Shown here: piece after piece, positions 7,165-24,600 of the stretch
Numbering within the stretch: the first letter of the stretch is position 1
Layout of the letters: the number at the start of each line of letters is the position of its first letter
Assembly (NCBI RefSeq): GCF_009177095.1
Contig: NZ_AP021861.1
Location: forward strand, 992,001 to 1,056,000
Length of the DNA stretch: 64,000 nucleotides
Reading direction: 5' to 3'
Origin: Lacipirellula parvula
Lineage (GTDB): Bacteria; Planctomycetota; Planctomycetia; Pirellulales; Lacipirellulaceae
The notes under the pieces: model-generated
What the model was told of the DNA's origin: nothing
The model's database searches: none
Seen by the model: only the letters and a program-made list of their open reading frames with translations
Position numbers and translations under genes: made by a program

Positions 7165-8739
7165 TTACTTCGATTCCTTGGCGAGGCGGTCTGCGGTCGC
7201 CTGCATCGCTTTCACGAGATTGGCCGAGGCCGATTCCGCGATCGCATAGTCTTCCTTGATCTTCGCGAACGGCGTGGGGGCGTCGATTTCGGGATGCAAC
7301 ACCGCGTTTATTTCCGGGGCGTCGAGCTTCGCGAGCGCGTCGTCCAGACGCTTCCATTCGAAAATGACGCGGCCGCGGTAGCCGTGGCGCTCTTGCCATT
7401 GGCTGAACTGTTCGACAAAGGCGGCGAACAGCTCGTTGGCGTCGGCGCTTTCCTGTTCCTGGGCGACGATGAACTTCTCGCCAGCCGCACGCAGCCGCAG
7501 TTGCATGGCGATGTCGGTCAGGAACCGCTGCGGATCGCCGAACATGAGTCCTTTCAGCGGGCCCGTTTTCAGATCGCCCGCCGCCAACTTTTCGAGCGAG
7601 GCGGCCGTGGCGAGCATGTGTTCCGTGTCGACGCTCGTGAGCGCCGTCCAACCGGCGACGATCTCGGCGCCGTGGCCGGGGAGCAACTGGTCGGCGAACT
7701 CGACGTAGTCGGCTTCGGCCAGCGGTTTGCCTTGGGCGCCGCGAGCGAACGCAAAGATGTACGGCAATTGCAAGCAGTGCGTTTGGGCGTTCGCCATCAC
7801 GCCGCGGCCGGTCGGTTCGAGGCCGGCTTGGTAGGCCCGGTCAGAACCGAAGTTCGTCAGCGGGAACGTCGGCTCGCCCTCGACCGATCCGTAGCGGTAG
7901 TCGATGGCGCGATCGGTTTGGCCGACTCGGTTGGCATGATGGATATTGCCGGCCAAGCCCCATGGCTCGGGGTTCAACTCCTTGAGGTGTTTGAGCGCGG
8001 CGTCGAATTCGGCTTCGGTGCTGAACTCGAATTTGCCCGTTTCATACCAACGGCAGTAACCCGGCCAGCCGACGTGCATCCAGTAGAGCATTTCGATGCC
8101 GGGGCGGAGTTGGTCGAGCATCTTGCGATGAGCGCCGAGCAGCGCGACGAACTCTTCAGTCGTCGAACCGGGATAACCTCCCGGATCGCTGTCGATCACG
8201 ACGAATGCATCGGCCTGGGCGAGCGGGCGAAGTTGCTTTTCGCGGCGCTTCATCATCCGCTCCATCGCTTCCGCGTCGCCCGGGTTGACGCGCAGGTCGC
8301 TGAAGAAGAACACACGGTCTTCGAATGTCATTTGGCCCGCGACGGCGTCGTCAGCGATCACGTTTGGGCAGAGACAGACGAAGACCTTCATGCCCTTGGA
8401 GTGGATCATGTCGATCACTTGGCGACACTTCTCCAGGTATGCCTCGTCGCTCTTGGTGAGCGGATCGGGCATCGTGTCGATGACCGGCCAGAACTGGATG
8501 ACGTTGTAGCCGAGTTGCTTCACGCCATCGACATACCCTTCCCAATCTTCGAGCGACCATTCGCGGGCGGCGTACGGGTGGTTGTACGGCCAGTGCTGGT
8601 GGACGTAGATGCCGATGATTTTTTCCGCAGCGGGCGGCTGCGCTGGTTCGGCGGTTTTGTCGGCCGCATGAAGGGTCGGCGTCGCGAACGCGGTGAGCAG
8701 CAACAGACAGATGCCGATAATCGTGCGAATTGCGGTCAT
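7165..8739 (-). CDS. Secreted glycosidase-like protein, paralogue 1 (DPGG family)
   Basis: 524 residues with a clear Sec signal peptide (about 1-25, ending LHA-AD). The mature part opens with IIGIYVHQHWPYNHP and then WSLEDWEGYVDGVKQLGYN, the start of a (beta/alpha)8-type fold, and carries DSDPGGYPG at about 173-181. The same order of blocks (G-[IV]-Y, W-x-x-x-[QD]-W, DPGG, a late LPYIFAFARG block) recurs in the proteins at 21645, 24798 and 27682, so these are diverged paralogues. I cannot assign a glycoside hydrolase family. It is the last gene of the minus-strand arm, 94 bp after the MFS permease, and most likely acts on a glycan outside the cytoplasm. Confidence 0.75.
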   Translation of the reverse strand: MTAIRTIIGICLLLLTAFATPTLHAADKTAEPAQPPAAEKIIGIYVHQHWPYNHPYAAREWSLEDWEGYVDGVKQLGYNVIQFWPVIDTMPDPLTKSDEAYLEKCRQVIDMIHSKGMKVFVCLCPNVIADDAVAGQMTFEDRVFFFSDLRVNPGDAEAMERMMKRREKQLRPLAQADAFVVIDSDPGGYPGSTTEEFVALLGAHRKMLDQLRPGIEMLYWMHVGWPGYCRWYETGKFEFSTEAEFDAALKHLKELNPEPWGLAGNIHHANRVGQTDRAIDYRYGSVEGEPTFPLTNFGSDRAYQAGLEPTGRGVMANAQTHCLQLPYIFAFARGAQGKPLAEADYVEFADQLLPGHGAEIVAGWTALTSVDTEHMLATAASLEKLAAGDLKTGPLKGLMFGDPQRFLTDIAMQLRLRAAGEKFIVAQEQESADANELFAAFVEQFSQWQERHGYRGRVIFEWKRLDDALAKLDAPEINAVLHPEIDAPTPFAKIKEDYAIAESASANLVKAMQATADRLAKESK

Positions 8740-14663: not shown

Positions 14664-15031
14664 AACGGAGACTATTTCTTTCGTCGCTGCGTGGCTCGAC
14701 CGACTCTCGTCATGCCGAACGTTGCGAGCCGTGGGGGCCGCCCCAATCCGAACTCTTGTGTTCGATATAAACAGATGTTATCATAAACGAACAATCGGTC
14801 AAGCGTTTTGCTCCTCATGCTCTGAGGAGTTTTCGCGTTTGCAGGAAGTCGCAAGAAGTTGCGACGGTCAGCCAGATTTCGGCGGGCCGCTGCAACGAAC
14901 CCCCGCCCATTCCTCTCGCCGCGAGCCGGCGGAGCCGCTGCGGCTTTCCGCGAAGGATGCCGTCGGCTTACGAACATCTGCGCAGCGCTGTGGGCCCGCG
15001 CAATGCCATCACCACCTATCGAAGGGTTGAA
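14664..15031. other. Divergent regulatory region between epimerase-like gene and aldolase
   Basis: No gene. The region holds promoter/operator copy 1 (14756-14793). About 240 bp separate its -10 from the aldolase start, so the aldolase mRNA would have a long leader. A partner promoter for the leftward operon is expected but I could not point to one. Confidence 0.55.
14756..14793 (+). promoter_or_regulatory. Promoter/operator-like element, copy 1 (upstream of aldolase)
   Basis: A -35 TTGTGT (14756-14761) and a -10 TATCAT (14779-14784) are separated by exactly 17 bp. The 38-bp segment matches copy 2 at 19709-19746 in 30 positions, including TTGTGTTCGAT, TAAACA and CATA; the identity extends through both the promoter hexamers and the spacer. 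GTTCG and CGAAC form outer inverted arms. A DeoR-family regulator encoded at 18.7 kb is the obvious candidate binder (inference). Confidence 0.72.
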
Positions 15032-15862
15032 ATGTCCGTCGTCCCGCGTCTCCGTCGCCTGTTTGCCGCTGACAATCGCTGCCTCAACGTGGCCGTCGAT
15101 CACGGCTTCTTTAATGAGTGGCCCTTCTTGCAAGGGATCGAAGATATGTCGCGCGCCGTGCAAACGCTGCTCGATGCCAAGCCGGATGCGATCCAGCTCA
15201 CGGCTGGCCAGGCGAAGCATCTGCAGTTTGCCAGCAGTGATGACAAGCCGGCGTTCGTGTTGCGCACCGACGTGGCCAACGTCTACGGTTCGGAGCTGCC
15301 GCGCACGCTGTTCAGCCATGTGATGGACGACACCGTCGAGCAGGCGCTTCGTCTCGACGCGGCGTGCGTGGTCGTCAATCTGTTCAGAATTCCGAATCAG
15401 CCGGAAGTTCACCAGCAATGCGTCGAGAACGTCAGCCGCCTGAAGCCGCTGTGCGAGCGGTACGGCATGCCATTGATGGTCGAGCCGCTGGTGATGCAAT
15501 CGAACTCCGCGGCCGGCGGCTACATGGTCGACGGCGACATCAAGAAGATCGTGCCGTTGGTGCGTCAGGCGACTGAACTCGGCGCCGACATCATCAAGGC
15601 CGATCCGTGCGACAACTTGGAGGAGTACCACCTTGTGGTGCAGGCGGCCTCGGGCTGCCCCGTCCTGCCGCGCGGCGGCGGAAAGGTGCCGGACGACGAA
15701 GTCCTCCGCCGTACGAGCGTCTTGATCGAGCAAGGGGCGTCGGGGATCGTCTACGGGCGCAACATCATTCAGCACGCCAATCCGGCCAAGATGACGCGGG
15801 CCCTGATGGCCATCGTGCACGGCTCGTGCGATCTGGAGCAAGCAAAGCAACTGCTCGTGTAG
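15032..15862 (+). CDS. DhnA/FbaB-type class I aldolase
   Basis: 276 residues, a TIM-barrel class I aldolase of the DhnA family (relatives: class I fructose-bisphosphate aldolase, LsrF). The Schiff-base lysine is in ELGADIIKADP, the N-terminus has the typical VAVDHGFFNEW, and the phosphate-binding end has PRGGGKVPD and GASGIVYGRNI. Such enzymes cleave phosphorylated ketoses into two three-carbon units or similar pieces. I chose ATG 15032 (GAAGGG 5 bases upstream) over 14957. It is monocistronic, under the conserved operator, and converges with the kinase gene (13-bp gap). Substrate unknown. Confidence 0.88.
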   Translation: MSVVPRLRRLFAADNRCLNVAVDHGFFNEWPFLQGIEDMSRAVQTLLDAKPDAIQLTAGQAKHLQFASSDDKPAFVLRTDVANVYGSELPRTLFSHVMDDTVEQALRLDAACVVVNLFRIPNQPEVHQQCVENVSRLKPLCERYGMPLMVEPLVMQSNSAAGGYMVDGDIKKIVPLVRQATELGADIIKADPCDNLEEYHLVVQAASGCPVLPRGGGKVPDDEVLRRTSVLIEQGASGIVYGRNIIQHANPAKMTRALMAIVHGSCDLEQAKQLLV

Positions 15863-15874
15863 GGCCTCAGTTGC

Positions 15875-17305
15875 CTAAGGCGTTAGTGCGGCGTTGGCGT
15901 CGTTCGCCATGGCTGCGTACTGAACGACGTTGTTGGCAATCGGCAGAAGTGGGTGTTGCAAACGCACCCACTTCTGCGTCACTTCTGCTACCGGCGAGTT
16001 GCTGAGAGTCGCTTCGGCGAGAATGGCGGCGCCGAGGCTTGTCGGTTCTCCGTAGGCCGTGGTCGAGACGACCAGGTTGAGCACATCGGCTTTGATTTGC
16101 AGCCAAATCGCGCTGCGCGAGCCGCCGCCGGCCGAGCGGACTTCCCGCCAGTGCGCTGCGGACGAACCTTGCAGGCGCTGCAAATGCTCTCGAAGCGCGG
16201 CCGCCACGGTTTCCATGATGGCGCGCACGACCTTGCCGCGCGGTTGCACGTCGACGTACGGCGCTAGCGCGTCGGCCGGCGTCGCGGAGCTGCGATCGAT
16301 TGTGAGGCCATCGGCCCCGGGCGCGACGCTCGTGGCCAGCGGGGCCAGGTCATCGAACTCCGGCAGGTCGGGAAGTTGGTCGCGATACCAGTGCAGGTAG
16401 TTCGCCGAGACGCTGCCAAACGACATCCGCCAATAGAGGCCATTCCGATAAGCGGGGCCTTGGTAAACGCCCGGCGCGGGGTTGTCATCGAGTTCCGCGG
16501 CGCACGCCACGGCGGCCAGCACGGTGCCAGTGGTTTCAGAAAGCATGCCAGGTTCGACGCTGCCGACGCCGATCGCGCCGGCGTACTGATCGAGCGTCCC
16601 CACGATGAAGCGGCAGGCGTTGTCGATGCCCAAGCGCTGCGCCATCTCGGGCAGAATGTTCCCCAGATCGGTGCCGGCGTTCACCACCTGCGGCAGCCAC
16701 TCGGCGTTCAAACCAAAGCGTTCGAGCGCCGGCTGCCACCAGTCGCGCTGCTCGATGTCGACCAACCCGGTGAGACCGGCGACGCCCGCCTCGGTCACGT
16801 GATGGCCGGTCATCAGCAGCGTGAGGTAGTCGCTGATGAGGCAGATTCGCGCGGTCTGTTTCCAAGCGTGCGGCTGTTCGCGCGCGAGCCATTGCAGTTT
16901 GGCGACCATGAATTCTTCGTTGAGCGCCGGAATGCCGGTCGTCGCCGAGAAATCAGCAAGTCCCGCAGACGGCGCGAGCTCAGCGCCGATGTCGGCTGCA
17001 CGCCGATCGGACCACAAGATGATCGGCGTCAGCGGGCGATTCTCCGCATCGAGCAGCGTGAAGCTGTTGCCTTGCGTCGCGAAAACCATCGCGTCGACGG
17101 TAGCGCGACGAGTGCCGTTCGGCGCCAGAACTTGCTCGATCCCTTTGCAGATCGCTGCTTCGAACTTCTCCGCCGGAATCTCCACCCAGCCAGCGTGGGG
17201 AGACCTCGCGGACGGCGTCACCCGGACGGTGCGCAGGAGTTCGCCGCGGCGGCTGAACAGCGTGAACTTGAAGTACGTCGTCCCAAGATCGATGGCGAGA
17301 ATCAT
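15875..17305 (-). CDS. FGGY-family carbohydrate kinase
   Basis: 476 residues with an actin-like ATPase fold. The phosphate-1 loop is ILAIDLGTTYFKF at residues 2-14, the central GTLDQYAGAIGVGSV carries the catalytic aspartate, and the C-terminal adenosine region has RSAGGGSRSAIWLQ and YGEPTSLGAA. The family phosphorylates sugars or polyols such as xylulose, gluconate, rhamnulose or glycerol; the substrate cannot be read off. It is the third gene of the deoR operon, 36 bp after the ceramidase-like gene, and its product would logically feed the convergent aldolase. Confidence 0.93.
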   Translation of the reverse strand: MILAIDLGTTYFKFTLFSRRGELLRTVRVTPSARSPHAGWVEIPAEKFEAAICKGIEQVLAPNGTRRATVDAMVFATQGNSFTLLDAENRPLTPIILWSDRRAADIGAELAPSAGLADFSATTGIPALNEEFMVAKLQWLAREQPHAWKQTARICLISDYLTLLMTGHHVTEAGVAGLTGLVDIEQRDWWQPALERFGLNAEWLPQVVNAGTDLGNILPEMAQRLGIDNACRFIVGTLDQYAGAIGVGSVEPGMLSETTGTVLAAVACAAELDDNPAPGVYQGPAYRNGLYWRMSFGSVSANYLHWYRDQLPDLPEFDDLAPLATSVAPGADGLTIDRSSATPADALAPYVDVQPRGKVVRAIMETVAAALREHLQRLQGSSAAHWREVRSAGGGSRSAIWLQIKADVLNLVVSTTAYGEPTSLGAAILAEATLSNSPVAEVTQKWVRLQHPLLPIANNVVQYAAMANDANAALTP

Positions 17306-17341
17306 TGCAATCGACGAGCTCTCTGCTCGTCGCCGTTAGCT

Positions 17342-18667
17342 CTAGTTTTGAGAAAGTAGTTCCAGCGTGCGACCGACGAGCAAATTGCCCGAGGCGGGGC
17401 TTTCGAAAATCGCGTTGAGCGACTCGTAGGTTTTGTCGCGCACCGCGTCGGCGGTCACGAGATATCCCTGCAGGTCGCCGTTCGCCATGCTGATGATGCA
17501 GCACTGCGGATAGCGGGCTTTGATTTCGAGCGAGAACTCGACAAACTGCTCGCCTGGCCAACCGACGTAGTGCCAATCGCCGATCTGGAAGATCGACAGC
17601 TCGGCAGGCAGCACCTCCTCGGCGGCTTGCGCCACGAAGCCTTGCTCGGAGGCGCGGCTCAAGGCCACGGTTTCTTCCGCGCCGAACAGTTTGCATTCCG
17701 CCGTGCGAATCGTGCGGGGATCGGCCGCGGCGGCTTGAAGTTGCCGGAAATCGGCTTCGGCTTGATGCAGCAACTCGTCCGCGGCGTCGACGGTGGGAAA
17801 CTTCCGTAGTGGGAATCGCAAGCTGTCCGACCGGCAACTGAGTCGCAGCGTCGAGGAGTATTCAATGCTACGCATCGCTGCTTCGACGGCGGCGCCGAGC
17901 AGATAGCCGAGGCGCGTCGCTTCGGCGACCGTGTTTTCGCGGACGACGTGCCGGGGGCTCAGGTTGCCGCATGGGCCGGTGTGGTAGATGACGGGAATCT
18001 TGCTGCCGAATGTGCGCTCCTGCAGGTATTTGCGGGCGAGTCCGGGAAAGTCGCCGCTGACGAGCGTCGACGTTTCACGCAACACCGTGGGGTGCATCGA
18101 GCAGACGAGCAGCACCGCGATCGGCGCGTGGCTTTGAGCGCAGCGCACCGACATCACCGGCGCGGTCGGGTCCGACGGTCCCGATGGGTCGAGGCGGTTG
18201 CTTCCCACCGCCGAGGCGTCGGCGACGGCGACGCCAAGCTCCGCGGGACGCTTTGTTTCGTAGGCTTGCACAGCGGCGGCGACGATGCCGTCTTCGAGCG
18301 TTTGCACGAACGCAGGATCGATCGCGGGAACACGCGGATCCGCCGCGTTGCTGAGCATCGTCATCGTCATCGGCGCCGAATGTGTGTGCGTCGCCGAGAT
18401 CAAAATGTGGGCGGCGGGGATTCCCGTGGCACGCTCGATGCACGCTTTCGCACGCAGCGCCAGCCCGCGCTCGACGAAAATGACGTCGCACGCCACGAAG
18501 AGCTGCGCGACGTTTCCGTCGCTCAGATAGAGTGCCGAACAAAGAAGCGGGTCGTTGACGCCCGTGCTGTTCCGTTCGACGTTCGGGTAACCGAACAGGA
18601 AGAGGCTGCGGGTCGGACTAATGTCGACCGCTGCGGCTCCCGCAACCAACGCATAACTTGAGCTCAT
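17342..18667 (-). CDS. Neutral ceramidase-like hydrolase, apparently cytoplasmic
   Basis: 441 residues matching the neutral/alkaline non-lysosomal ceramidase N-terminal fold: AAAVDISP near the start, the zinc-site motif ISATHTHSAP, SGDFPGLARKYL, YHTGPCGNLSPRH, and the late GWPGEQFVEF. Ceramidases cleave N-acyl amide bonds of sphingolipids at a zinc site. No signal peptide is visible (the N-terminus is MSSSYALVAGAAAVDIS), unlike secreted ceramidases, and it sits between a sugar kinase and a DeoR regulator. Amide or ester cleavage on a sugar derivative is therefore more likely than ceramide hydrolysis, but this is inference. Lies 38 bp after deoR. Confidence 0.85.
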   Translation of the reverse strand: MSSSYALVAGAAAVDISPTRSLFLFGYPNVERNSTGVNDPLLCSALYLSDGNVAQLFVACDVIFVERGLALRAKACIERATGIPAAHILISATHTHSAPMTMTMLSNAADPRVPAIDPAFVQTLEDGIVAAAVQAYETKRPAELGVAVADASAVGSNRLDPSGPSDPTAPVMSVRCAQSHAPIAVLLVCSMHPTVLRETSTLVSGDFPGLARKYLQERTFGSKIPVIYHTGPCGNLSPRHVVRENTVAEATRLGYLLGAAVEAAMRSIEYSSTLRLSCRSDSLRFPLRKFPTVDAADELLHQAEADFRQLQAAAADPRTIRTAECKLFGAEETVALSRASEQGFVAQAAEEVLPAELSIFQIGDWHYVGWPGEQFVEFSLEIKARYPQCCIISMANGDLQGYLVTADAVRDKTYESLNAIFESPASGNLLVGRTLELLSQN

Positions 18668-18705
18668 CGTGCCAGCAAGTTCTCGCGCGGTTGCTAGGCG
18701 CCTAG

Positions 18706-19467
18706 CTACGCGAGCAGAACTTGAACCCCTTTCTTTGCGAACGATTCGACCAGCTTCTTGTCAACGCCGCGGTCGGTGATGATTCCGTCCCAATCTTGTA
18801 GTTTCCCGCAGCGACAGAGCGCGGTCTTGCCGAACTTCGAGCTATCCGCGACCAAGTACACGACCTTGGCCGACTTCACCATCGTGGCCAGCATCTTGGC
18901 GACTTCCGGCGATTGCTGATAAACGATGCCCTTGTGGTCGATGCCGGCGGCGCCGATGAAGGCGATGTCGGCGCACAGTGATTCGAGGTTGGATTCTGTC
19001 AACGCGCCGACTAAGTCGGGCGACGTTGGTCGGACGTAGCCGCCGAGCAATAACACCTCCACCTTCGGCGCGTACTGCAACCGCGAAGCGATCGGCAGCG
19101 AGGTGGTGACGACGGTGATGTTCGGTTTCGCACGCAACTGCGTGGCGATCGCGAGCGTCGTCGTGCCCGAGTCGAGGAGCACCGATTGGCCCTCTTCGAC
19201 CTTGCCGGCCGCCAGCTTGGCGATCGCCTCTTTGGCCTCTTGGTGTTGGCCGTACTTCTTCAGGAATTCAAAACCAAAGCTCACGCTTTCCGCCATGGCC
19301 GCCCCGCCGTGGGTGCGAATGATCTTGCCGCTTTCGGCGAGCGACTGCAGATCGCGTCTGATCGTCATGTCGCTGACGCCCAATTCCGTGGCCAACTGAT
19401 CGATTGAGCATTCGCCGTGGGCGGCGATCATCTCAATGAGCTTTTTGTCGCGAACCGCATTTCCCAT
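18706..19467 (-). CDS. DeoR/GlpR-family transcriptional regulator
   Basis: 253 residues from this start. The N-terminal helix-turn-helix is CSIDQLATELGVSDMTIRRDL; the C-terminal sensor domain (phosphosugar isomerase-like) has LLDSGTTTLAIATQL and AFIGAAGIDHKGI. Such repressors respond to a phosphorylated sugar and usually control their own operon. It leads the operon deoR - ceramidase-like - kinase. An upstream in-frame ATG at 19539 would add 24 residues; I prefer 19467 because the helix-turn-helix then begins at the family's usual distance, though neither start has a good ribosome site. Confidence 0.92.
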   Translation of the reverse strand: MGNAVRDKKLIEMIAAHGECSIDQLATELGVSDMTIRRDLQSLAESGKIIRTHGGAAMAESVSFGFEFLKKYGQHQEAKEAIAKLAAGKVEEGQSVLLDSGTTTLAIATQLRAKPNITVVTTSLPIASRLQYAPKVEVLLLGGYVRPTSPDLVGALTESNLESLCADIAFIGAAGIDHKGIVYQQSPEVAKMLATMVKSAKVVYLVADSSKFGKTALCRCGKLQDWDGIITDRGVDKKLVESFAKKGVQVLLA

Positions 19468-20136
19468 AGGACGTGACGCATGAAGGCTGTGGGTGGCAAA
19501 CCGCAAAAGCGGAAACTCCGCATGTGGAAAGTACCCCATGCGCGTTCCGGGTGAAAGTCTGCCACTGCCGCCGACGAGCTGTTGCGCATTAAATGCGCCT
19601 CATTCGTCGCTGCTCGCGTCCTGCTCTTCGATCTCCGCAACGGCGATGTTCGCCATCGTGCGGTCTTCATCTTTTCTTGTCGGAACGATTACGAATCGTT
19701 GACACGAATGTTTGACTATGTTAATGTTTGTTTACATCGAACACAAGCCGATTCCAAAGAAGATCGTCACGTGGGAGATGGAAAAGACAGGCATGCAGCG
19801 GTCACCTATCGTCTTGGGCGGCGGGAGGTAAATGTGTGCGGACGCCATTTTTCTTGTCGCCGTTAGTTCAGAATTGCTCGCGAAGAGATCGAAGTAAAGC
19901 TTTTCTTGCGAGTGGAGATTCGTCTCTTTCATCGCATCAATGCTCGAGCGGTTCTCGCTCGGGATTGCTCCGTCTCTCGCTGCGCGCCAGGCGCGGCGTC
20001 GCTTCAGGCTGCTCGCGTTTTTGAACCATTTTTCTATGGGTTGCGGACGCTCGGCGGCCACGCCGTTCGCGCGCCCGTCAGCCAGATTGCAGTTACAACT
20101 AAGTTACATCCCCGAATCTCAAGAGGAGACTCCCTG
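19468..20136. other. Intergenic region between deoR operon and the PEP-CTERM gene
   Basis: No convincing gene; the overlapping small frames lack codon signal. It contains promoter/operator copy 2 for the leftward deoR operon and presumably a separate promoter for the rightward arm, which I cannot locate. The last 16 bp hold the AAGAGGAGA ribosome site of the next gene. Confidence 0.5.
19709..19746 (-). promoter_or_regulatory. Promoter/operator-like element, copy 2 (upstream of deoR operon)
   Basis: On the minus strand a -35 TTGTGT (19746-19741) and a -10 TAACAT (19723-19718) are 17 bp apart. Thirty of 38 positions match copy 1 upstream of the aldolase, and similarity continues weakly for about 15 bp downstream (ACA-TCG, TCAA). 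It faces deoR, 242 bp away. Autoregulation by DeoR is the natural reading. Confidence 0.72.
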
Positions 20137-21546
20137 ATGAGTACCGAATGTCCAGTCTCTGAAGTCGCCTGCGCGGCCAGCGTTCAGCGGGGCCAGGGGC
20201 GTGCGCCACAACGAGCGCGGAGACTGACTCTTTCGCCAATGCTGCAAGCGCTCGCCGTCGCGTTGAGCGCCGCGATCGTTGCCGCGCCAGCGGTGGCCCA
20301 AACGACGCGGCATCAAGTGAGCAAGACGAACCCCACCGGGCAGAACGACGTGGGAATTCGCTACTTTAACGGCACCTTCGACGTCGGTTACAGCGCTGGC
20401 GACGCTGCGTACAGCGCCGCCGCTTCCGACGGCTACTCGCTGCTGCTGTTCGATCAGTCGGAATACAACGCGCGGTTGATGGCGAACGCCGGCCGGGGCC
20501 CCGCGTATTACGGCTCCGCCGAACTCCGTTTGCCGTTCGTCGGCACCGGTCTCGACGTCCTCCAAATCAACGACGCTGCCGGTGAAAGCTACGACTGGGA
20601 GATCGTCACTTCAGGTTCAAACAACGAGTTCCAAGTCGTTTCTTCAGGCACCGTCGATACCTACACCCCCGGCGCCCCGGTCGGCCAGAAAGTGACGCTT
20701 GCTGCGCAAGGAACGCTGACTGCCGACAAGATTTACATGCTTCGCCTGAAGGTGAACGATTCCGACGGACTCAACGGCGGGCAAGGCGGCAAGTGGCGGG
20801 CGTTCATCGACGCCTTCGACGTCTACGACGAGACGCCCCTGACGTTCGACGACGACAGCAACTTCTCGGGGAACTGGAACTACGTCGACCCATCGGCCTG
20901 GGATATCGGGGTCGGCGACTCGCCGGTCTATGAAGGAACGCGTTCCGGTACGCCGGGAGCCGACGAGAAGCTCGATATCAGTTTCACGGGCACGGCCTTC
21001 GCGCTCTACGGTTTCAACTGGGGCGGCATCACCGGCGTCTACGATTGGGCCGTCGACGGCGGACTGGGAGGTTCGGGAACCGTCGACCAAACCCTCGACC
21101 TCGACGTGCACGGATTTGCCGTGCGTTGGCCGGAGTTGGTCGTCAACGGACTCTCCTCGGGCGAGCACACCCTGAGCATCACGGTCAGCGGCTCGAGCGC
21201 CGGCGGCGCCATTCCCACCGGCTTGGGCTACAACATCTTCGATGCGCTCGCGGTGTATGATTCCGGCGTCGTCATCCAGAACAACGCCGACTTCAACGTC
21301 GACGGCGTCGTCGACGGTCGCGACTTCCTGATCTGGCAGCAGGGCTTCGGTTCTGGTTCGACGCTGCAGCAGGGCGACGCGAACGGCGACTCGATCGTCA
21401 ACGCCGCTGACCTTGCCATTTGGAAGACGCAGTTCGGCGCCGCCGCCACGACCGTCGCGGCCGCCGTGCCGGAACCGGCGGCGGGCGTGATCGGCTTGCT
21501 CGGCCTCTCGCTGCTCGCTTGCTTGCGGAATCGTCGGCAAGCATAA
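20137..21546 (+). CDS. PEP-CTERM protein with dockerin repeat and beta-sandwich module
   Basis: 469 residues. A long basic N-region (about 1-33) precedes a signal helix ending VAAPAVAQ. The middle carries a beta-sandwich module with YDWAVDGGLGGSGTV, matching two modules of the next protein. A dockerin-type calcium repeat follows (ADFNVDGVVDGRDFLIW and GDANGDSIVNAADLAIW), and the C-terminus is a PEP-CTERM exosortase signal: VPEPAAG, hydrophobic helix, RNRR. It is thus probably a cell-surface glycan-binding protein. ATG 20137 has AAGAGGAG about 8 bp upstream; an upstream in-frame start at 19906 is rejected. Confidence 0.85.
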   Translation: MSTECPVSEVACAASVQRGQGRAPQRARRLTLSPMLQALAVALSAAIVAAPAVAQTTRHQVSKTNPTGQNDVGIRYFNGTFDVGYSAGDAAYSAAASDGYSLLLFDQSEYNARLMANAGRGPAYYGSAELRLPFVGTGLDVLQINDAAGESYDWEIVTSGSNNEFQVVSSGTVDTYTPGAPVGQKVTLAAQGTLTADKIYMLRLKVNDSDGLNGGQGGKWRAFIDAFDVYDETPLTFDDDSNFSGNWNYVDPSAWDIGVGDSPVYEGTRSGTPGADEKLDISFTGTAFALYGFNWGGITGVYDWAVDGGLGGSGTVDQTLDLDVHGFAVRWPELVVNGLSSGEHTLSITVSGSSAGGAIPTGLGYNIFDALAVYDSGVVIQNNADFNVDGVVDGRDFLIWQQGFGSGSTLQQGDANGDSIVNAADLAIWKTQFGAAATTVAAAVPEPAAGVIGLLGLSLLACLRNRRQA

Positions 21547-21644: not shown

Positions 21645-24600
21645 ATGAACTTCTCGCAGTTGCGGCGACGCACTCTCCATATTGAACTGCTGGAGCCGCG
21701 ACAGCTCTTGGCTGGCGACGCGCCGGTGCTGGATGTGCTTGCCGCGGAGACGCCGGCTGCTGAGCCTGCTGCCGATCTCGCCGCAGATTTCGCGGCCATG
21801 GCGACCGCAACGGAAGACGCCCAGGCGCAAACACAGCCCTGGGCGACGACTCGCGGCGTGTACGTCTTTACGCTGAGCGCGTACCAAGGCGTGTGGGCGC
21901 CGAAGGACTGGACCTTCGCACAGTGGGAGACCTGGCTCGACCAGATGGAGTTCTTGAACTTCAATCATCTCCAGCTGATGCGGGCGCCATGGTCGGAACG
22001 CCCGGCTCAAACGCCGGCGGAATTGGCGAAGGAAGCGTTGTGGGTGCAGGTGCTGCAATCGGCGAAGCAGCGCGGGATGACCACTTCAATCGTCTTCGGC
22101 ACGACGTGGCACGGTGATCTCACCAATCCCTGGCGGATTTTGTCGCCGGGCAATAGCCCTGCGGATCCCAACTGGCAGACGCTGCTCGGCGACTACCAAT
22201 ACTGGGCGAACAAGTATGGCGCCTGGGTCGATGAGTGGGTGATGGGGGGCGAGGACCCCGGCGGCTCGCCTTCGAGCGCCGGCATCAATTACGCATTCGA
22301 AACGCCGTCGCCGCTCGGGAATCCGAGCAACGTTTCGGAATTGGTCTCGCTGCAAATCGCGATGCGGTACGCCGCCAGGCAGGTGAATCCGTCGGCCAGC
22401 GTCGTGGCGGAAACATGGGGCCTCAACTGGTGGGGCACGTCGCCCGGCTACAGTTCGCAGCTGGCTGAATTTTTGGTTCAGCAGTCGCGCCTGCCGAGCG
22501 ACGTGCCGCTGAGCACGCACGGCAACGACGACGCGCTCACCAATTCTTTGCAAGCCACGGGGCGGGACGTCGACGCGTGGCCCTTCTTTCTGATTGATCA
22601 CGAATTTCCCGTCGGCCACACGAAGCTGCACTTCGATTGGACGAGAAACTATCTTGGAAAGATCAAGGCGCAGGGCATCGACAGTGTCATCGCCCACATC
22701 TCGCACCCGACGGAACAGTTGCCGTCGCTGTACGTCTACTCGCGGCTGCTCGATGACGTGAATCTGAGCGAAGCAACGCTGCTAAAAGAATTCGCCGCGT
22801 TTTTGGTCGAGCCGCCGGCGCAGCAGACGGCGCTCGCCAATGCGATCGGCAGCCTCAGCGATTTTTGGGATTCCGTGAGCGGCATCGCCAATTGGACGGC
22901 CGCCGCGTTGCAGCCGGTGAACGTGGCGGCGCCGTTTACCACGCGCTACAGCGCCGCTCAGCTCGGCTACTTGAACTCCGCGTTGGCGAACATCACCGCT
23001 GTGACCGATCCTCGCGCTGTGTCGCAGATTCCGATGCAGATCACGGCCGCCGCGTGGGTGCAAATGCTGCGGGATCAGATTCAGTTCTTGCACGACGCCG
23101 CCTACATCGGCAATTTGGCAGCTCAATCGCAAAGCTACCTCAACGATCAGTACCCCGCAGTCGCGGCGTTGATCGCGCCGCTGAGCCGGGCGGAAGCTGC
23201 TGAAATGGAGGCTGCCTTCCATTCAGCCGGCTCGGCGGGGGCCTTGCAACGCATGGAGGCGTATCTTTCGCAGTTCTGGCAGACGACCACCAATCAGAAC
23301 CATCCGCTGGGAATCATTTACGATTTCCTCCGCCTGAACATTCCGACCTCCGTCGCCGGATCGGTAGGGTTGTCCGGGGACTACTTAGAGTTTGCTGCGC
23401 CGGCCTACCCGACGCTCTTCAAACAACTCGACGGGCGCGTGGAACAAACGGACGGCAGTTTTTCGTACGCCCGCGACACGCAGTGGACGACGGAATCGTC
23501 TGCTGCATTCTCCGGCGGCACCGCGATCAAGAACTCGACCATTAACAGCGAAGTGAACATCGTGTTCTCCGGCAGCGGCGTCTCGCTGATTCACTCGCTG
23601 TGGCAACAAGGGGCGACGGCTTCGTGGTCGATCGATGGCGGCGCGGGCGGATCGGGGACGATCCAGATGAATGCCGCCACGCGGACCGATCAAGTCGAAA
23701 CGCTGCTCGCCACGGGTTTGGCGCAGACGCTCCATGTGTTGACGATCAAGAAGATCGGCGGCGCGGCCAGCACGGCCATCCAAATCGACGGCGTCGTCGT
23801 TCAGAACAACAATCGTTTGCGTCGCGAGGACGATCGCCAACTGCTGACGTACAGCGGGCAATGGGCCTCCACCAACGAAGGGACGCCTAGCGGCGGTTCG
23901 TGGCACTTCACGACGGAGAACGCCGCCTCGGTGACGATCCCGTTCACCGGCACGGCTGTCGGCATCGCCGCCACGTTGCGCGGCGATTATGGCGTGATTG
24001 CGTGGAGCATCGACGGCGGCGCCGGCGGTTCAGGGACCGTCAGCCTGCAAAGCTCCAACTATACGAATAAGATGCCGTTCATCCTCACCAGGGGGCTAAC
24101 CAACGGCAATCACACGCTGACGCTCACCAAGCAGAGCGGGTTCCTGATCAACATCGACGCCGTCGATTCGGCTGTCGAGCAATCGGCCGACTTCAACAAC
24201 GATGGCATCGTCGACGGCGCCGACTTCCTGGCCTGGCAACGAGGCTTCGGGGCGTCGGGCAACGCAACGGCAGCCCAGGGAGACGCCGATCTCGATCGCG
24301 ACGTCGATGCCGACGACTTGGCTATCTGGCGGACGCGATTCGGGCAAAAGGCTGCCAGAACCGCAGTCTCGTTGGCAGTCGCCGCGACCGAGGCGAGCGT
24401 GAGTGAACGTTCCAGCGTCGCAGCTTCGGAGTCGTCGGAATCTTTTAGCGCCGCTGCGAACGTTGAGGGGCAAGACTCGGCGTCGGCTCTGGCTGCGTTG
24501 AATGGTTTGGAGTTGCAGTCGTTTCAACTTCAATCAAGCCGCCCAGCGATTGACCGCTTGATGGCGTTGTTTGCCGAAGAGCACTCGCAGAAGTCTCGCT

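Follow-up and report, generated by a model that had tools for sequence, protein, structure and literature searches.

A predicted DeoR-family half-site array shared by the aldolase and deoR transcription units of a planctomycete sugar island

In the RhaR regulons of Rhizobiales, Chloroflexales, Thermotogales and other groups, a local DeoR-family regulator governs a sugar-catabolic gene cluster, and the RhaR motifs are imperfect direct repeats with a periodicity of 10−11 bp (PMC3870299). The mapped DeoR-family sites of Caldicellulosiruptor overlap promoters or fall within 5′ UTRs, which is the placement typical of repressors (PMC8579813), and GlpR operons with 4−8 sites have been described (PMC7567609). 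A planctomycete example is PvmA of Planctopirus limnophila, a DeoR-family protein that acts as a rhamnose-dependent native switch, with indications that it is a repressor (PMC11958385).

The locus described here is an island of Lacipirellula parvula found at positions 7165−19539 of the window, i.e., of the whole stretch of 64,000 nucleotides that was analyzed. It is like the RhaR regulons in that a local DeoR-family regulator accompanies a sugar-catabolic cluster and in the 10−11 bp repeats. It differs from them in the sequence of the predicted operator, where up to three direct repeats are joined by an additional leading half-site in inverted orientation, and in a gene set that includes an aminotransferase, a ceramidase-like protein and DUF4432 and DUF1559 proteins. 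The likeness to PvmA is at the family level, i.e., both are planctomycete DeoR-family proteins associated with a sugar-catabolic cluster, but PvmA controls a bacterial-microcompartment cluster for rhamnose and fucose, and no operator sequence for it was found in the accessible part of the report (PMC11958385). With the E. coli DeoR, AgaR and GlpR repressors the island DeoR shares the same two Pfam domains, i.e., HTH_DeoR (PF08220, E 4.6e-21) and DeoRC (PF00455, E 2.6e-49), both above cut-off. Unlike the members of that group, it scores below every curated NCBIfam equivalog cut-off (bits, with the cut-off in brackets: AgaR 178.8 (260), the archaeal GlpR_Halo 207.6 (300), SrlR 155.3 (350), UlaR 110.9 (244) and DeoR 111.2 (244)), so that none of these names applies to it. 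DeoR-family operators with direct repeats of 10−11 bp are thus known; new is the operator sequence, of which no earlier description was found in the open-access literature.

The deoR gene (18706−19467, minus strand) probably starts at ATG 19467, which is M25 of the longest open reading frame, and its product is the single PF08220 (DeoR-type HTH) protein in the genome (6.92 Mb, one contig). Both in the window and in relatives, deoR has the surroundings of a local regulator, i.e., it adjoins FGGY kinase and ceramidase-like genes and is found near transporter, aldolase and aminotransferase genes. Its operon also includes genes for a neutral/alkaline-ceramidase-like protein (17342−18667, minus; PF04734, E 1.2e-11), a neighbor of deoR in several relatives, and for a xylulokinase-like FGGY carbohydrate kinase (15875−17305, minus; PF00370 and PF02782, with the XylB model under its cut-off). 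A DeoC/LacD-type class I aldolase (15032−15862, plus; PF01791), the start of which was aligned with position 9376 of L036 in the relative G027, is LsrF- and MJ0400-like among PDB sequences. A leftward run on the minus strand is composed of genes for a DUF4432 protein (13527−14663; PF14486), a DUF1559 protein with a pilin-like N-terminus (12418−13509; PF07596), a class-III aminotransferase (10905−12308; PF00202), a D-lyxose-isomerase-like cupin (10360−10860; PF07385, E 6.7e-13), an XylE-like MFS sugar transporter (8834−10294; PF00083, with TIGR00879 above cut-off) and a TIM-barrel protein (7165−8739; weak PF01261). The aminotransferase is 73−80% identical to those of relatives, and among solved structures, 4-aminobutyrate aminotransferases and racemases come closest to it. 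Together, the LsrF/MJ0400-like aldolase, the FGGY kinase, the lyxose-isomerase-like cupin, the XylE-like transporter and the DUF4432 protein point to a kinase−aldolase sugar pathway, while the presence of a class-III aminotransferase suggests a nitrogen-bearing substrate or intermediate.

To the right of deoR, a gene for a dockerin/PEP-CTERM extracellular protein (20137−21546, plus) has a probable start at ATG 20137 with AGGAGA upstream; an arm homologous to this extracellular arm is also divergent from deoR in G027. Further to the right, the large proteins encoded at 21645−24773 and 27604−29139 are without a Pfam-named catalytic domain and are kept near deoR in G027 (about 58−64% identity); they possibly represent a carbohydrate-active family outside the assigned ones. 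The distribution of the island is patchy, i.e., none of the five other genomes of the genus has deoR (E ≤ 1e-50) and only 4 of 44 family genomes carry it, which suggests horizontal transfer or repeated loss.

The initial annotation identified two 38-bp elements, at 14756−14793 (plus strand, copy 1) and 19709−19746 (minus strand, copy 2), that agree in 30 positions, and interpreted these as a promoter/operator shared by the aldolase and the deoR operon. Coordinates, strands and identity were reproduced exactly. The next-best non-overlapping 38-mers in the window have 21−22 matches, compared to 30 for this pair, and in 1,000 dinucleotide shuffles confined to the two intergenic gaps (14664−15031 and 19468−19905) the maximum was 27 of 38. 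A rough all-pairs chance estimate for the whole window renders 30 of 38 only moderately rare, and the argument for an operator therefore rests on comparative tests. Copy 1 is located, as had been observed, in the divergent gap ahead of the six-gene leftward run. The distance of about 240 bp from each copy to a gene start also holds (238 bp to the aldolase at 15032 and 241 bp to deoR at 19467), given these starts, which are backed by the gene starts of relatives; position 15032 is M26 of the longest aldolase reading frame. The two leaders (14794−15031 and 19468−19708) share no similarity beyond the operator (best 38-mer 23). A search of the region 14600−20200 returned no Rfam RNA family, and these leaders are thus not accounted for by a known riboswitch or leader RNA.

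In the aligned sites of the window and its relatives, TGTTCR is found at positions 1−6, followed by TNAACA-like half-sites at 10−15, 20−25 and 30−35. In copy 1 these are TGTTCG (14759−14764), TAAACA (14768−14773), TTATCA (14778−14783) and CGAACA (14788−14793), i.e., a single leading half-site followed by three in the same orientation at a spacing of 10 bp; in copy 2 they are TGTTCG (19743−19738), TAAACA (19734−19729), TTAACA (19724−19719) and CAAACA (19714−19709). Half-sites 1−3 carry 1.4, 1.3 and 1.1 bits per column, respectively, compared to 0.4−0.5 in the gaps and about 0.2 in the flanks, and are kept in nearly all of the 12 sites. Half-sites 2, 3 and 4 start at 10, 20 and 30, which is the imperfect direct-repeat pattern of 10−11 bp periodicity seen in DeoR-family operators. 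The initial annotation had deduced a bound regulator from the conserved spacer between two promoter hexamers. The regulator part of this claim is supported, but the "spacer" is conserved because the half-sites run at a 10-bp phasing and not at promoter spacing, i.e., most of what is conserved in the 38 bp is an array of predicted regulator half-sites.

The interpretation that we favor, with a probability of about 0.87, is that copies 1 and 2 form the complete operator set of the island DeoR, which would repress the aldolase gene, the six-gene arm and its own operon until an inducer is present. With half-sites about one helical turn (10 bp) apart, the protein units would bind to one face of the DNA, in rows that overlap the −10 and −35 hexamers of promoter-like sequences pointing in both directions. 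When no inducer is present, DeoR bound to both rows would block RNA polymerase and thereby hold off the aldolase gene, the six-gene DUF4432 arm and the deoR−ceramidase-like−FGGY kinase operon. Upon entry of the sugar, an intermediate, perhaps the product of the FGGY kinase, would bind to the DeoRC domain, DeoR would be released and the island would be expressed. From the sequences we infer physical binding, repression rather than activation, the identity of the promoters and the inducer. Some points count against this model. The matches of the forward hexamers to a promoter consensus are limited (8 and 7 of 12, see below), conservation of half-site 4 is weak (0.56 bits per column), and both leaders in the window are, at about 240 bp, longer than those of most relatives, in which deoR is found close behind the operator. 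The deoR start codon in L021, L022 and G288 is part of a GTCAATG directly past the operator; in the window and in G027 GTCAACG is found there instead, and deoR begins some 240−335 bp farther downstream, as though an original start had been lost and the leader lengthened. These places are at about 19697−19704 (minus) in the window, about 10908 in L035, 4641 in L021, 8001 in L022 and 4789 in L040.

Repression by blocking of the polymerase is favored because the half-sites overlap promoter-like hexamers. The hexamers that were originally pointed out are present, i.e., TTGTGT-17-TATCAT in copy 1 and TTGTGT-17-TAACAT in copy 2, but they are weak. TTGTGT is a poor −35 element (3 of 6 consensus positions), and each copy also has a TTGAC-type pair that is slightly better and faces the opposite way. 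Scored over 12 positions against a consensus that is not established for planctomycetes, the candidate promoter toward the aldolase (14756−14784, plus, with its −10 element inside half-site 3) has 8 matches and that toward deoR (19718−19746, minus) has 7, while the candidate divergent promoters, TTGACC-16-TAACAT toward the DUF4432 arm (14775−14802, minus, with its −10 element over the operator) and TTGACA-17-TAATGT facing right (19699−19727, plus), each have 9. The predicted operators thus overlap hexamers that are consensus-like, in terms of a consensus not established for this phylum. GTCAA, the reverse strand of TTGAC, is found 4−6 bp past half-site 4 in 8 of the 12 sites; because of this recurrence and of the opposite-facing pairs, each copy is probably a bidirectional promoter−operator. 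Copy 1 probably serves both the DUF4432 arm and the aldolase, while copy 2 probably serves deoR and possibly also the extracellular-protein arm at 20137. In four relatives, G285, G417, G031 and G001, it is a strong promoter-like sequence, TTGACR-16-CATAAT, that is covered by the operator.

The arrangement of these hexamers also bears on a model in which the same regulator acts at the same sites, but as an activator of at least one promoter. Some DeoR-family proteins do activate, e.g., E. coli FucR, an activator of divergent operons (PMC12566272), and the weak forward promoter matches resemble activated promoters. However, the half-sites are located over the −10 and −35 hexamers and not upstream of them, the operator covers strong promoters in the four relatives mentioned above, and the DeoR-family sites mapped in Caldicellulosiruptor are placed as for repressors (PMC8579813). 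Activation is thus unlikely.

The link between the half-site array and the island DeoR was drawn from genomic association, and it could be argued that a different regulator binds to the sites. The same array is found upstream of the deoR ortholog in 8 of 8 relatives examined, the DeoR proteins of which are 49−65% identical. Across 398 genomes of the class, matches at E ≤ 0.02 are found in exactly the seven that carry a deoR ortholog at E ≤ 1e-60, a co-occurrence that is partly circular as most sites in the search model (R1) come from those same genomes. Weaker matches in G036 and G037 (E 0.04 and 0.74), in G118 and G056 (E 0.035−0.037) and at a second place in G027 (C2, L061, E 0.27) are without convincing island genes and were attributed to chance. 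In a ninth genome, G001, in which DeoR is only 37% identical, the 6.0 Mb contain exactly two mismatch-free occurrences of the diverged sequence TGTTGTAWTGTAMCATAATC, one ahead of deoR and the other ahead of the aminotransferase−aldolase genes (L037, 6489−6526 and 11884−11921), i.e., the operator has changed along with its regulator. With a site that adjoins deoR in all eight relatives, matches confined to genomes that carry this deoR and a half-site sequence that changes with its regulator in G001, binding by another regulator is improbable.

The array is also found at other island genes of these relatives. In G027 it is located in the divergent gap ahead of the TIM-barrel and DUF4432 genes (L036, 2310−2349, before the TIM-barrel ortholog) and ahead of the DUF1559−aminotransferase−cupin−MFS−aldolase genes (L036, 3834−3871, before the DUF1559 ortholog). 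Two further sites, used in none of the models, were found 20 bp ahead of the aminotransferase gene in G285 and about 60 bp ahead of a gene for an apparent iron-type alcohol dehydrogenase (Fe-ADH) in G027 (L036, 10260−11444); these confirm the predicted association of the array with a regulon. The original proposal that a shared operator for the local DeoR connects the transcripts of the aldolase and deoR therefore has strong support from the comparative evidence, while its promoter reading needs to be changed. Within the window, such a regulon would comprise deoR−ceramidase-like−FGGY kinase, the aldolase and DUF4432−DUF1559−aminotransferase−cupin−MFS−TIM barrel, with the extracellular arm at 20137 as a possible addition.

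Random occurrence of the motif all over the genome would speak against a dedicated operator, and the initial annotation had called for a genome scan. A model built from ten relatives' sites only, i.e., with the copies of this genome excluded, has exactly two matches at E ≤ 10 in the 6.92 Mb, copy 1 (E 2.1e-4) and copy 2 (E 2.35e-3), and the exact sequence TGTTCGATNTAAACA also occurs twice. With a position weight matrix of other species' deoR-upstream sites only, the two copies score 40.4 and 35.2 bits, respectively, compared to 10.3 bits for the next non-overlapping position in the window. Variants of the 15-bp core with 1−2 mismatches occur at 26 further places in the genome (7 for a reversed control pattern), and neither 43-position model scores any of them at E ≤ 10. 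The single-mismatch match L003 is found in long adjacent open reading frames that read as NADH-dehydrogenase genes, and none of the other loci that were checked has a homolog of sugar-catabolic enzymes; these were rejected as operators.

That the elements are just two sigma-70 promoters resembling each other, with no regulator of their own, is very improbable in view of these data. Such a reading draws on the promoter-like form of TTGTGT-17-TANCAT and on the fact that TTG is retained at most sites that have a gene ahead and no upstream TTGACA. Yet the TTG of TTGTGT is found in only 6 of the 12 sites, conservation is highest outside of the hexamers, in the 10-bp-phased array, the half-sites are kept in relatives while the promoter hexamers shift, and the motif is found only twice by the held-out model. 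Recent duplication of one promoter region, suggested by the close resemblance of two copies in one island, is likewise very improbable, because the likeness fades beyond 38 bp and relatives have the same pattern of conserved half-sites and free gaps at several genes.

Long-range DNA looping is a known property of E. coli DeoR. By analogy, one oligomeric assembly of the island DeoR might bridge both operators, which are separated by 4.95 kb and located on opposite strands, looping out the deoR−kinase−aldolase block, such that the whole island, including the extracellular arm, would be one switch with four divergent promoters at two sites. The E. coli protein is an octamer (PMC10991401). We consider this extension of the operator−repressor model to be speculative and rather unlikely.

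Overall, the locus has the appearance of a switch of an ordinary bacterial kind, and the two sites are very probably where a single DeoR-type regulator binds. In P. limnophila, inducible systems in common use did not work, and it was necessary to turn to a native rhamnose regulator (PMC11958385). The array described here offers a testable candidate for the operator sequence in a sugar regulon of a planctomycete and what would be a small, clean circuit, i.e., one regulator and two sites in a genome of 6.9 Mb. The operator would also delimit a catabolic pathway, as the aminotransferase, Fe-ADH, DUF4432 protein, kinase, aldolase, isomerase-like cupin and ceramidase-like protein appear to be co-regulated across relatives.
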